Source: Kribbella steppae
GTDB lineage: Bacteria > Actinomycetota > Actinomycetes > Propionibacteriales > Kribbellaceae
Direction: 5' to 3'
Assembly: GCF_004342025.1 (NCBI RefSeq)
Contig: NZ_SLWN01000009.1
Span: 248,001 to 312,000 of the forward strand
Length of the DNA stretch: 64,000 bases
In this document: positions 20,595-46,890 of the stretch, in pieces
Position numbering within the stretch: the first letter of the stretch is position 1
Layout of the letters: the number at the start of each line of letters is the position of its first letter
Position numbers and translations under genes: made by a program
The notes under the pieces: generated by a model
Seen by the model: only the letters and a program-made list of their open reading frames with translations
Databases searched by the model: none
Told to the model about the DNA's origin: nothing

Positions 20595-21844
20595 GCCTGC
20601 CCGTCGTCGTCCTTCGGTGGCTGTCCCCACCCGCCCTGTGAACCGTCCTGCCCGCCTGGCTGGCCCTGCTGGGGCGGTGCCGGCGGACGGCCTTCCTGCT
20701 GCGGACCCCGGCCACCCTGCTGCGGTTGCCCTGGTTGCCCGTAGCCCTGCTGCGGCTGGCCAGGCTGCTGTCCCCAGCCGCCCTGCCCCTGCCCCGGACC
20801 CGGCTGCCCCTGCTGTGGAGGCTGGCCCTGCGGACCCCACTGACCTGGCTGAGGCTGTCCAGGGTACTGCGGTTGGCCAGGCTGTCCCGGGTACGGCGCC
20901 TGCCCCGGCTGACCGCCCTGACCAGGCTGGCCCTGCCCCGGCTGACCGCCATACTGCCCGGGCTGGCCGCCGTACTGGCCGGGTTGTCCTGGCTGGCCAC
21001 CGTACTGGCCGGGTTGTCCGGGCTGACCGCCGTACTGGCCAGGCTGTCCGCCGTACTGACCACCTGGACCGGACTGCGCGTACCCCGGCTGCCCGGGGTA
21101 CTGACCCGGCTGGCCGCCGTACTGCGGGCCCCACTGGCCCTGTTGCGGCTGGCCCGGGTACTGACCGTATTGCCCGTAGCCCTGCTGGGCCTTGGCCTTG
21201 CGACGACTCCGCAGTACGAAGAAGACAACCGCACCGGCCGCCAGCAACAGCAGCACAACGATGAGGATGATCGCCCAGAGCGGGAAGCTGTTGCCGGCCT
21301 CAGAGGTCAGCGACACGTTGCCGAGCTTGTCGAGGCTGTCGTACGTCGCCGTCCGCCCGTCGACCTTGGCACCGCCGTCTTGCTCGATGATCTTGCCGGG
21401 CATGGTGATCTTGAAGTTCACCGTGGGCTGGCTGCCGGACGGCATGCTGCTGCCCAGGTCGTCCGCCTTCACCGTGACCTTGATCTTGTCGCCCTCTTTG
21501 CTGAAGCCGACGCCCTCGCCACTCGAGCTGCCCATCTTGTCGAACGGCACGCTCTCGAAGGTGCAGTTGGAACCGACGTACCGATCGTCCTCGAACGCCT
21601 TGCAGGTGACCCCGTCGGTGGTGGTCTCCTTGATCCCGTCCTCGATCCGCTCCCGGACCTTGTCGAGCGACTGGCCGCTGGACTCCAGCAGCTGCTTGTC
21701 GACCCCGATCTGCATGTTGCCCGAGACGGTCTCGTTGGAGCTGACCTTCAGGTCGGCGTCGAGTTTCACGCACCCGGTCAGCGCGACCAGGCACGCCCCG
21801 ACGACGAGCGCTGCACGTACGCGGTTCATCATGCGGTCGATCAT
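20591..21844 (-). CDS. LppM-type lipoprotein with membrane anchor and Gln/Gly/Pro/Tyr-rich cytoplasmic tail
   Basis: About 417 residues. A lipoprotein signal with lipobox ALTGC (Cys about residue 24) leads to an LppM/DUF3153 domain (residues about 25-195), then a membrane helix ([24 protein letters not shown]), a short basic stop (RSRRKAK) and about 170 residues built from YGGQPGQ-like repeats. LppM in mycobacteria is an envelope lipoprotein affecting glycolipid content. Having both a lipid anchor and a helix places the repeat tail in the cytosol. The first Met of MIDRMMNRV was taken as the start; MMNRV is an alternative. Coupled to DUF3046. Confidence 0.85.
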
Positions 21845-43494: not shown

Positions 43495-43653
43495 GATCCG
43501 AAGGTGCGCTCCCCCGGTGACGGTCAGGTGACGACGGGGCGAACGACCTGACAAATCGATCCAGGTCGGGCGAGGCAGTCGCGTTGCGCGCGATATTTTC
43601 GTCGTGGCCGACCCGGCCGACACTCCGACTGGATGCGTGCTGCGGTCGGGCAT

Positions 43654-43744
43654 GGTTCGGTTGACCCTCAGCCACCCTTCTCGTGGCGCTGCCCCGGATC
43701 CGGTAGCGCATCTCGACCGATGCACTCCAGGACGGGGTATTCCG
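43654..43744 (+). promoter_or_regulatory. Duplicated leader/promoter element, copy 1 (upstream of first desaturase)
   Basis: This ~90-bp segment is nearly identical to 45721-45810 before the second desaturase, beginning at GGTTCGGTTGAC and running to the start codon. It holds two short hairpins: GCCAC-N7-GTGGC (43671-43687) and GCATC-N6-GATGC (43708-43723). Conservation of non-coding DNA at this level between paralogues implies a regulatory role. Confidence 0.8.
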
Positions 43745-44824
43745 ATGTCACAGCTGGTTGCCGATGACGCGCACCCGCGGGGACCGCAGCAGCGGCACGC
43801 GAGCCTCTACACCGACCTCTTGCAGACCGTGCGTGAACTGGGCCTGATGCGGCGGCGTCATGGCTACTACTTCACCCGGATCGGGCTGGTACTCGCGGCC
43901 CTGGCGGCCGTCGGGACCGGAGTCATCTTGCTGGGTGACTCCTGGTACCAGCTGCTGATGGCCGGTGCGCTGGCCCTGGTGCTCACGCAGGTTGCGTTCC
44001 TCAGCCATGACAGCGCACACCGGCAGATCTTCCACTCCGCCGCCTGGAACGACTGGACCGCGCGCCTCCTGGCCAGCGGTCTCGCCGGGATGAGTGTCAC
44101 CTGGTGGCGGAACAAGCACAGCAAGCACCACAACGCGCCCAACCAGCTGGGCAAGGACCCCGACATCGACATCGGGGTGATCGCCTTCACTCCCGAGGCG
44201 GTGGGCAGGCGCCGCGGCCTGGTCAAGTGGTTCGGCGACCGCCAAGGATGGTTCTTCTTCCCGCTGCTGACGCTGGAGGGGCTGAGCCTGCACGTGGCCA
44301 GTCTTCGGCACTTGCTGCGGCGCAAGGCGACCCGGCTGGAGCGGATCGAGGCCGCGATCGTACTCACCAGGCTCAGTGGCTATGTGGCCGTCCTGCTCAT
44401 CCTGTTGCCGGTCGGCAAGGCCAGCGCCTTCCTGGGCATTCAGCTGGCGATCTTCGGGATCTGCCTGGGCGCATCGTTCGCCCCGAACCACAAGGGCATG
44501 CCGCTGGTGCCGGCGACGATGAAGCTGGACTTCTTACGCCGCCAGGTGCTGATGTCGCGCAACATCCGCGGTGGGGTGCTGGTGGACTTCGGGATGGGCG
44601 GACTGAACTACCAGATCGAGCATCACCTGTTTCCGAGCATGCCCCGGCCATCACTCAAGAAGGTGCAGCCGATCGTGCGGGAGCACTGCGCGCGGCATGG
44701 AGTGCCGTACACCGAGGTCGGCCTGTTCACGTCGTACCGGATCGTCATCGACTACCTGAACAACGTCGGCCTGCGGGCCCGCGACCCGTTCCAGTGCCCG
44801 CTCGTCATGCAGTACCGGAACTGA
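43745..44824 (+). CDS. Membrane fatty acid desaturase, copy 1
   Basis: 359 residues. Three histidine boxes of the membrane di-iron desaturases are present: HDSAH (88-92), HSKHH (125-129) and QIEHH (late, in NYQIEHHLFPSMPRP). Hydrophobic segments flank them. QIEHH, with Gln for the first His, marks the front-end/linoleoyl-type clade. It would introduce a double bond into membrane lipid or acyl-CoA chains with O2 and a reductant. The start at ATG 43745 is set by GGACGGGG and by identity with copy 2; the upstream frame extension has no paralogue support. Confidence 0.92.
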   Translation: MSQLVADDAHPRGPQQRHASLYTDLLQTVRELGLMRRRHGYYFTRIGLVLAALAAVGTGVILLGDSWYQLLMAGALALVLTQVAFLSHDSAHRQIFHSAAWNDWTARLLASGLAGMSVTWWRNKHSKHHNAPNQLGKDPDIDIGVIAFTPEAVGRRRGLVKWFGDRQGWFFFPLLTLEGLSLHVASLRHLLRRKATRLERIEAAIVLTRLSGYVAVLLILLPVGKASAFLGIQLAIFGICLGASFAPNHKGMPLVPATMKLDFLRRQVLMSRNIRGGVLVDFGMGGLNYQIEHHLFPSMPRPSLKKVQPIVREHCARHGVPYTEVGLFTSYRIVIDYLNNVGLRARDPFQCPLVMQYRN

Positions 44825-44934
44825 CTCCGATGCCCGCCGTGGTCGGCTCGGACCGGTAGGCCGGGGTCTCACCACATCGATCCGGTGACGACCGGGCGAA
44901 CTGGGTCACCAAATCATTCACTTCCCGGCCGTGT

Positions 44935-45687
44935 GTGACGAAGATGGAAGGGCCGGCCGGGCCGAAGGGAACACAGTTGAGACGGGAACACCGCATCACC
45001 CAAGTCTTCATCGAGCTGGCCGACACGTTGGTCGACGAGTTCGACGTGGTCGACTTCCTCCACACGCTGGCCGAGGTCAGTGTCGAGTTGCTCGATGTCG
45101 ACGCCGCCGGGTTGATGCTGGCCGACGAGGACGGCGTACTGCGGGTGATGGCGTCGTCGGACGACCAGGCCGAGCTGCTGGAACTGTTCGAGCTCCAGCA
45201 GAACGAAGGCCCGTGCCCGGAGTGTTTCCGCACCGGCGCCGCGGTGGTCAACGTCGACCTGCGCCGCTGGCCCGACTTCGCCGCGGCGGCTGCGGCCGGC
45301 GGCTATGCCTCGGCCCATGCGGTGCCGTTACGCCTTCGCGGGCAGGTGATCGGCGCGCTCAATCTCTTCCGGACCAGTACGGAACCACTCGCCGACGAGG
45401 ACATCGCCCTCAGCCGGGCGCTCTCCGACATCGCCACGATCGGCCTCCTGCACGAGCGGCGGCACCGTGGTCAGCAAGTGCTGGCCGAGCAGCTCCAGCA
45501 CGCGCTCAACAGCAGGATCGTGATCGAGCAGGCAAAGGGAATGCTGGCCGAGCGGACCGGGCTGAGCCCGTCGGACGCGTTCACCGTGATGCGTTCGTAC
45601 GCACGAGGCACGGGCCAGGGCTTGAGCATGGTGGCGCACGGCGTACTCGACGGCACTCTCGACACGTCTGCGCTGCTCACTCGTTAG
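44935..45687 (+). CDS. GAF-ANTAR protein, RNA-binding antiterminator type
   Basis: 250 residues. A GAF domain (residues about 22-160, ending PLRLRGQVIGALNLFR) is followed by an ANTAR domain (QLQHALNSRIVIEQAKGMLA, ERTGLSPSDAFTVMRSYARG, last 60 residues), the three-helix fold that binds paired small RNA hairpins and prevents termination. The GAF domain probably senses a ligand or redox state; no heme motif is seen. It sits between the two desaturases, each preceded by a conserved leader with two hairpins. Start GTG 44935 or ATG 44944 are both possible. Confidence 0.9.
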   Translation: MTKMEGPAGPKGTQLRREHRITQVFIELADTLVDEFDVVDFLHTLAEVSVELLDVDAAGLMLADEDGVLRVMASSDDQAELLELFELQQNEGPCPECFRTGAAVVNVDLRRWPDFAAAAAAGGYASAHAVPLRLRGQVIGALNLFRTSTEPLADEDIALSRALSDIATIGLLHERRHRGQQVLAEQLQHALNSRIVIEQAKGMLAERTGLSPSDAFTVMRSYARGTGQGLSMVAHGVLDGTLDTSALLTR

Positions 45688-45720
45688 CTGGACGACAGCT
45701 TGCGTGTGGCAGTCGGCCGT

Positions 45721-45810
45721 GGTTCCGTTGACAGTCACAGCCACCTTCTCGTGGCGCTGCCCCGGACCCGGTAGCGCATCGACCGATGCACTCCGGACTG
45801 GGGCGTTCTC
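45721..45810 (+). promoter_or_regulatory. Duplicated leader/promoter element, copy 2 (upstream of second desaturase)
   Basis: Copy of the element at 43654. GGTTCCGTTGAC opens it; the hairpins here are GCCAC-CTTCTC-GTGGC (45740-45755, six-base loop) and GCATC-GACC-GATGC (45776-45789). Loop lengths differ between copies while stems are kept. Confidence 0.8.
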
Positions 45811-46890
45811 ATGTCACAGCTAGTCGCGGACGAACACAGTCCGCAGCGGCCGCAGCAGCGGTACGCAAACCTCTACACCGACCTCTCCCGGACCGTACGT
45901 GACCTCGGACTACTCCGCCGGCGCCACGGCTACTACTGGACCCGCATCGGCCTGGTGATAGCGGCCTTCGCAGGCGTCTGGGTCGGCTTCGGCCTGCTCG
46001 GCAACTCCTGGTTCCAGCTCCTGATGGCCGGCGCGCTGGCGCTGGTCCTCACCCAGGTCGCGTTCCTCAGTCACGACAGCGCGCATCGGCAGATCTTCGA
46101 CTCCGCGGCGTGGAACGACTGGACCGCACGCCTGCTGGCCAGCGGACTGGTCGGCATGAGTGCCAGCTGGTGGCGTTCGAAGCACAGTCGCCACCACCAG
46201 GCTCCGAACCAACTGGATCGCGACCCGGACATCGGCTCCGGAGTCGTCGCCTTCACCCCGGCGCACGTCGAGAAGCGCACTGGGTTCAGCGGCTGGCTGA
46301 CTCGTCGTCAAGGATGGCTGTTCTTCCCGCTGCTCACCCTGGAGGGCCTGAACCTGTACGTCGCGAGCCTGCGTCATCTGCTCCGCCGATCCGCGTCGTC
46401 CGTCGAGCGCATCGAGGCCGCGATCATCCTGACCCGGCTCGGCGGCTACCTCGCGGTGCTGTTGATCCTGTTGCCGATCGGCAAGGCCGGCGCCTTCCTC
46501 GGGCTCCAGCTCGCTGTGTTCGGGATCTGCCTCGGCGCGTCGTTCGCCCCGAACCACAAGGGCATGCCGCTCGTGCCGGCGACGATGAAGCTCGACTTCC
46601 TGCGCCGCCAGGTGCTGATGTCGCGCAACATCCGCGGCGGCGTGATGGTCGACTTCGCGCTCGGCGGGCTCAACTACCAGATCGAGCACCACCTGTTCCC
46701 GAGCATGCCCCGGCCGACCCTCAGGAAGGTCCAGCCGATCGTCCGCGACTACTGCGAGCTGCACGGGGTCAAGTACACCGAGGTCGGACTGTTCTCGTCG
46801 TACCGGATCGTCATCGACTACCTGAACAACGTCGGCCTCCGGGCCCGCGATCCCTTCCAGTGCCCGCTGGTAGAGCTCTACCGGAAGTAG
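45811..46890 (+). CDS. Membrane fatty acid desaturase, copy 2
   Basis: 359 residues, closely similar to copy 1 over its whole length, with HDSAH (88-92), HSRHH (125-129) and QIEHH. It is clearly a paralogue from local duplication that included the leader. Divergence is greatest at the N-terminus and around residues 145-165, which may set substrate or regiospecificity. It ends 3 bp before the convergent LacI gene. Confidence 0.92.
   Translation: MSQLVADEHSPQRPQQRYANLYTDLSRTVRDLGLLRRRHGYYWTRIGLVIAAFAGVWVGFGLLGNSWFQLLMAGALALVLTQVAFLSHDSAHRQIFDSAAWNDWTARLLASGLVGMSASWWRSKHSRHHQAPNQLDRDPDIGSGVVAFTPAHVEKRTGFSGWLTRRQGWLFFPLLTLEGLNLYVASLRHLLRRSASSVERIEAAIILTRLGGYLAVLLILLPIGKAGAFLGLQLAVFGICLGASFAPNHKGMPLVPATMKLDFLRRQVLMSRNIRGGVMVDFALGGLNYQIEHHLFPSMPRPTLRKVQPIVRDYCELHGVKYTEVGLFSSYRIVIDYLNNVGLRARDPFQCPLVELYRK

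Follow-up and report, generated by a model that had tools for sequence, protein, structure and literature searches.

The window analyzed here is a 64,000-nucleotide stretch of the Kribbella steppae genome. In this window, a gene encoding a GAF-ANTAR protein (44935..45687, + strand; ANTAR E 9.8e-16, GAF E 1e-12) lies between two genes that encode desaturases of the PF00487 family (FA_desaturase), which are located on the same strand at 43745..44824 (359 aa, E 2e-38) and 45811..46890 (359 aa, E 2e-37). The GAF-ANTAR protein is 250 aa long when counted from a GTG codon, and it is possible that an inner start codon is used instead. The two desaturases are about 80% identical to one another, and a leader of approximately 95 bp is found 5' of each of them. 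The two leader copies are 84% identical across about 117 nt, and they are the only intact copies in this genome. These domain matches and this repeat bear out the initial annotation of the locus, which described paralogous desaturases around a GAF-ANTAR gene, each with a near-identical leader. The first codons of the desaturases (ATG TCA CAG; window 43745-43756 and 45811-45822) are conserved to an unusual degree, and this includes TCA, a codon that is expected to be rare at such a G+C content.

Each leader contains, in order, a -10-like box, a variable hairpin (SL1), a conserved hairpin (SL2), a second variable hairpin (SL3), a Shine-Dalgarno (SD) sequence, and the start codon. The three hairpins abut with zero linker, and their arms are GCCAC/GTGGC, GCTGCC/GGTAGC, and GCATC/GATGC, respectively. 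In leader 1 (+ strand), SL1 occupies positions 43671..43687 (GCCAC-CCTTCTC-GTGGC), the SL2 core hairpin occupies positions 43688..43707 (GCTGCC-CCGGATCC-GGTAGC; model R2, 33.4 bits), and SL3 occupies positions 43708..43723 (GCATC-TCGACC-GATGC). The SD region of desaturase 1 follows at 43730..43737 (GGACGGGG) and is predicted to pair with the 5' arm of SL2, the exact partner being uncertain. In leader 2 (+ strand), SL1 is found at 45740..45755 (GCCAC-CTTCTC-GTGGC), the SL2 core hairpin at 45756..45775 (GCTGCC-CCGGACCC-GGTAGC; model R2, 38.4 bits, and also a match to the core pattern described below), and SL3 at 45776..45789 (GCATC-GACC-GATGC). The SD segment of this copy, CTGGGG at 45798..45803, is complementary to CCCCGG at 45760-45765 in the arm and loop of SL2, with a predicted pairing probability of 1.00. 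The initial annotation had named two hairpins, GCCAC/GTGGC and GCATC/GATGC. Both are present, but neither is the conserved core; that is the better conserved third hairpin between them, which had been overlooked together with the competing helix that overlaps the SD sequence. A third core-like match in the window (20784-20811, 26.9 bits) falls within a low-complexity coding stretch rich in Pro, Gln, and Gly and was judged to be due to chance.

Promoter-like boxes precede both sets of hairpins. They are ATGCGT (43633-43638) and TTCGGT (43656-43661) in leader 1 (43633..43661, + strand) and TTGCGT (45700-45705) and TTCCGT (45723-45728) in leader 2 (45700..45728, + strand), with a 17-base spacer in each case, and the box and spacer length are kept across nearly all aligned leaders of the genus. 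The upstream block that nearly all aligned leaders share consists of TTGCGT (with variants), a 13-base variable spacer, and GTGGTTCCGTTG; if it is a promoter, it may be read as TTGCGT-17-TTCCGT with an extended -10 element, and transcription would then be predicted to start just 5' of SL1. Among unrelated members of the family, TACCGT or TACTGT is frequent at the -10-like position, and TANNNT is enriched 26-62 bases 5' of the core (18/42 versus 8.9 in shuffled sequences, 0/500). A small upstream open reading frame in the leader was considered and rejected, since its frame is not preserved from copy to copy and the indels are not multiples of three.

The initial annotation had called for a search of related genomes. 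The leader is present in 33/38 Kribbella genomes and, where examined, lies directly 5' of the start codon of the desaturase orthologue; a DNA search of the genus had given 34/38, and a short match in genome G003 was dropped because the covariance model did not support it. Since the leader is kept in 33/38 genomes right before the desaturase start, comparison of the sequences confirms that conservation of this block exceeds chance. Only the window genome and Kribbella sp. VKM Ac-2527 (G008; L037) were seen to carry the double-leader cassette, and the leader is not peculiar to the desaturase-ANTAR-desaturase arrangement. The adjacent ANTAR orthologue is missing in 20/33 of the genomes that keep the leader and the desaturase, and no homologue of the cassette's ANTAR protein with more than 62% identity was found anywhere in those 20 genomes. 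Thus, the ANTAR protein of the cassette cannot be a universal dedicated regulator of the leader, and the initial annotation's proposal that this protein controls the two desaturases is not supported as far as a dedicated role is concerned. An ANTAR paralogue could act on the leaders in trans. Where the adjacent ANTAR gene is missing, a second desaturase paralogue is usually located closely 3' of the first, and a leader was not detected between the two (L014, L016, L022-L024, L026-L028, L030, L031, L033, L036). The short distance and the missing leader suggest that these two desaturase genes form an operon. Other weak leader matches in Kribbella (L042-L046) were set aside, as they lack the leader layout and resemble coding sequence. 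In another member of the genus, G018, a leader related to that of the desaturases over its full length (L041:4067-4177, - strand) lies 5' of a sigma-70 region 4-like gene instead of a desaturase gene, inside a cluster of GAF-ANTAR genes.

A covariance model built from the desaturase leaders gave weak matches that turned out to lie beside other GAF-ANTAR genes, and it is mainly SL2 that they have in common. The SL2 core has the consensus GCURCC-CYRGACCY(N)-GGYRGC. Among the 38 Kribbella genomes, the core pattern GCTRCCCYRGACCN{0,2}GGYRGC produces 51 matches versus 4 for a reversed control, and in Nocardioides the pattern is found 5' of STAS genes. When 84,980 species genomes were scanned with a stricter pattern, 44 loci were recovered; many of these are intergenic leaders and about 14 others resemble coding matches, the division between the two having been made by eye. 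The intergenic leaders occur in Actinoplanes, Winogradskya, Virgisporangium, Streptomyces, Allobranchiibius, Cryobacterium, and Curtobacterium, as well as in metagenome-assembled genomes (MAGs) of Pseudonocardiales, Acidimicrobiaceae, and Thermoleophilia. Domains encoded downstream of the leaders include STAS, HATPase_c_2 (two with GAF), sigma-70 regions, GAF-ANTAR, HlyIII, DUF1003, and desaturase. The core hairpin precedes genes for STAS proteins, RsbW-like kinases, ECF sigma factors, GAF-ANTAR proteins, and desaturases. SL2 is mostly 20-60 nt from the start codon. In a class-wide scan with a loose pattern, matches outside the order were hardly above the reversed control and all but about two were coding-like, so the claim of breadth rests on the stricter scan and on the leader layout. 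A search of the regions near the leaders with the Rfam 15 covariance models gave no match at E up to 5, nor at 1, and an earlier description of the leader was not found in the literature on ANTAR proteins with desaturases, STAS proteins, or leaders, which was covered incompletely. Together, these comparisons support the assignment of the approximately 95-nt segments to an undescribed actinobacterial family of leader RNAs.

Evidence that the leader is structured as RNA comes from comparison of its members. Across 63 cores, 99.2% of the cells of the SL2 stem are paired, with G-U, G-C, and A-U alternatives at one position and U-G and U-A alternatives at another. A double compensatory change was not found among these cores, and they were gathered with patterns that constrain stem positions, so the pair variants are support rather than proof. 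A test of the flanks is independent of the search pattern. In 45 diverse leaders, the 40 bases 5' of the core (the region of SL1) fold better than dinucleotide shuffles with z -4.0, and the 24 bases 3' of the core (the region of SL3) do so with z -6.1, related leaders being non-independent samples. The same flanks of 22 chance coding matches give z +1.1 and -1.9, respectively. With a 30-base downstream window, the 45 leaders give z -0.5, which is not significant, and the SL3 signal thus depends on the short 24-base window. SL1 varies in loop length and sequence. These data support the view that SL1 and SL3 retain structure without retaining sequence. Taken singly, the two window copies have folding energies that do not stand out (z -0.1 and -1.2). 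The case is therefore a comparative one, in which conservation and the folding of many leaders support the initial annotation's view of the segments as structured RNA leaders.

The 5' arm and loop of SL2 are able to base-pair with the sequence immediately 5' of the start codon. This complementarity is CCCCGG/CTGGGG in the window, and it takes other forms in other leaders (CCCTGGAC/GTCCAGGG in L083, CCGGACC/GGTCCGG in L102, and CCCCAG/CTGGGG in L107). Of the 36 leaders in alignment A1, 35 belong to desaturases and one is the sigma-like L041. For these leaders, the SD sequence is paired with a probability of 0.92, versus 0.83 when the upstream part is shuffled, and 31/36 exceed their own shuffles. 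SL2 is rarely the ground state in the same set (mean probability 0.03). The hairpin that is conserved best is thus not the thermodynamically favored state, and these folding predictions suggest that a ligand or protein stabilizes it. In the desaturase leaders, SL2 and an open SD sequence are predicted to be mutually exclusive, as would be expected of a translational switch that is off by default. When pairs of SL2 and downstream segments were permuted across 45 leaders, own pairs were favored over foreign ones only weakly (z -2.07, 396/20,000), and occlusion of the SD sequence and the default-off state are therefore described as predicted rather than shown. The leader probably switches translation on and off. 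RNAalifold also proposes a long-range pairing of GUGRC of SL1 with the start-codon region AUGUCAC (GUCAC), a putative contact that is compatible with the leader.

A statistical link between the leaders and GAF-ANTAR genes is supported by genomic proximity. In genomes G009, G012, and G018, 6/7 core matches outside the desaturase leaders have an ANTAR gene within 2 kb. With 16-27 ANTAR matches in each of these genomes, which are about 8 Mb in size, approximately 1% of positions would be that close; these genomes were picked since near-ANTAR matches had already been seen in them, and the count is an illustration. The genus-wide core list and the independent scan agree with it in direction. In the independent scan, an ANTAR-domain gene is found in 14/44 loci (11/41 outside Kribbella), compared with 1/25 for the class-wide matches, a comparison set that is mostly coding and whose loci are shorter (about 3 kb versus up to 8 kb). 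Leaders lie directly 5' of GAF-ANTAR genes at L080, L082, L085, L087, L095, L107, L152, L153, and L216. ANTAR genes are present in 4/4 Kribbella genomes (13-27 matches per Kribbella genome) and 8/8 other leader-bearing genomes that were tested, which is weak evidence because ANTAR genes are widespread in actinobacteria. Both ANTAR genes found in the Thermoleophilia MAG are apparently neighbors of the leader.

Several known or conceivable systems could account for such an element. Like the ANTAR-target RNAs of the NasR, NasT, and EutV type, the leader has tandem hairpins in an mRNA leader and a link to ANTAR genes, and like the actinobacterial set of ANTAR RNAs, which often overlap the ribosome binding site or start codon (PMC8164766), it lies close to the start codon of the gene that it would regulate. 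ANTAR RNAs are dual stem-loops whose six-base loops carry A1 and G4, joined by a linker (Mehta and Ramesh 2021, PMC8164766). In contrast, the leader hairpins abut, the sequences of SL1 and SL3 vary, and conservation centers on a single hairpin whose loop, CYRGACCY(N), has 8-9 bases, rather than on a pair of A1/G4 hexaloops. AnnGnn hexaloop hairpins of at least 4 bp are present in 10/45 leaders versus 6.75 in shuffles, and those of at least 5 bp in 7 versus 2.5; no leader of the 45 has two, and only 2/36 leaders of alignment A1 have the hexaloop. The initial annotation was thus right to caution that the loops do not fit this rule. Because this defining loop test failed, we do not file the leader as a canonical ANTAR-target RNA. 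The initial annotation's proposal of ANTAR-dependent antitermination, which the ANTAR gene between two leaders, the tandem hairpins, and the six-base SL1 loop of copy 2 would favor, is a poor fit and now seems very improbable: the hexaloop rule (PMC8164766) largely refutes it, the SL1 loop varies in length and sequence, the adjacent ANTAR gene is often missing, and the competing helix covers the SD sequence right before the start codon, which points to translation. It is also unlikely that the core is a DNA operator, an inverted repeat GCTRCC-N8/9-GGYRGC just 3' of the -10 box that would be bound by a dimeric repressor. Its palindromic form and its nearness to the promoter boxes are consistent with such a site. 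However, a spacer of 8 or 9 bases alters helical phase, the loop is conserved and asymmetric, the mismatches seen on the sense strand are G-U ones (though the search patterns restrict other types), and SL1 and SL3 keep structure rather than sequence. Moreover, the leaders examined do not show what an operator would be expected to have, namely symmetric half-sites that keep a fixed spacing and occur in both orientations; the core has a single orientation to the gene, and divergent genes carry one copy each (L080, L096, L107).

In translational riboswitches that sequester the SD sequence, a conserved hairpin and an SD-occluding helix are mutually exclusive. The leader resembles this general class in that SL2 and the SD-occluding helix are predicted to exclude one another, and differs from it in matching no Rfam family and in being linked to GAF-ANTAR and partner-switching genes. 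We regard it as a new leader family, predicted to sequester the SD sequence, with a probable but unproven link to GAF-ANTAR proteins. It is an appreciable, though less favored, possibility that the leader is some other RNA switch (a thermosensor, a riboswitch for a small molecule, or an element bound by a different RNA-binding protein) and that the GAF-ANTAR genes are members of its stress regulon rather than its readers. A sequence-conserved core outside the ground state would fit a ligand-bound aptamer, desaturases and HlyIII would fit a signal that comes from the membrane or from temperature, ANTAR genes are missing near many of the leaders that govern STAS, kinase, or sigma genes, and the hexaloop rule fails. 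Weighing against this alternative are the repeated direct proximity of GAF-ANTAR genes and the missing Rfam riboswitch match; in our judgment a conserved hairpin of 20 nt is small for an aptamer, and a thermosensor would presumably not need an invariant loop.

The reading that we favor, and that we regard as close to evenly balanced, is that of an undescribed SD-sequestering leader RNA whose likeliest opener is a GAF-ANTAR protein acting through the non-canonical SL2. Each approximately 95-nt segment would comprise a promoter and, behind it, the folded 5' leader of the desaturase transcript. In the free RNA, the 5' arm and loop of SL2 would pair with the region just 5' of the start codon, and the resulting long helix over SL3 would bury the SD sequence and keep translation off. 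A factor that recognizes SL2, flanked by SL1 and SL3, would trap this hairpin, free the SD sequence, and turn translation on. The likeliest such factor is a GAF-ANTAR protein, whose binding to the leader RNA we infer. Desaturases, STAS and RsbW-like regulators, ECF sigma factors, and the GAF-ANTAR genes themselves would then be translated at a higher level in response to a signal sensed by GAF. The leader family, its hairpins, its place before start codons, and its genomic link to GAF-ANTAR genes are supported by the comparisons above; the direction of control and the signal are what we infer from them.

More broadly, and more tentatively, a widespread actinobacterial RNA family absent from Rfam may be the target of GAF-ANTAR proteins, often encoded as tandem pairs, which would bind one sequence-conserved hairpin in place of two A1/G4 hexaloops and control translation of desaturases and of stress regulators (STAS, RsbW-like, ECF sigma, and ANTAR itself). 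Actinobacteria have many GAF-ANTAR proteins, and their RNA targets are mostly unknown or predicted by a rule from other phyla. An alignable leader that adjoins GAF-ANTAR genes provides direct RNA candidates for testing and could contribute an RNA family overlooked by current models. If the reading is true, membrane desaturation and partner-switching stress regulators would be under one post-transcriptional control. GAF-ANTAR tandem pairs recur in these genomes, one ANTAR domain giving a weak Pfam match, which often begins only at model position 8 or 9, and its partner a full one, and such pairs are often found 3' of a leader (L079, L080, L096, L097; genomes G661, G663, G667, G668). The tandem proteins might act as heterodimers.
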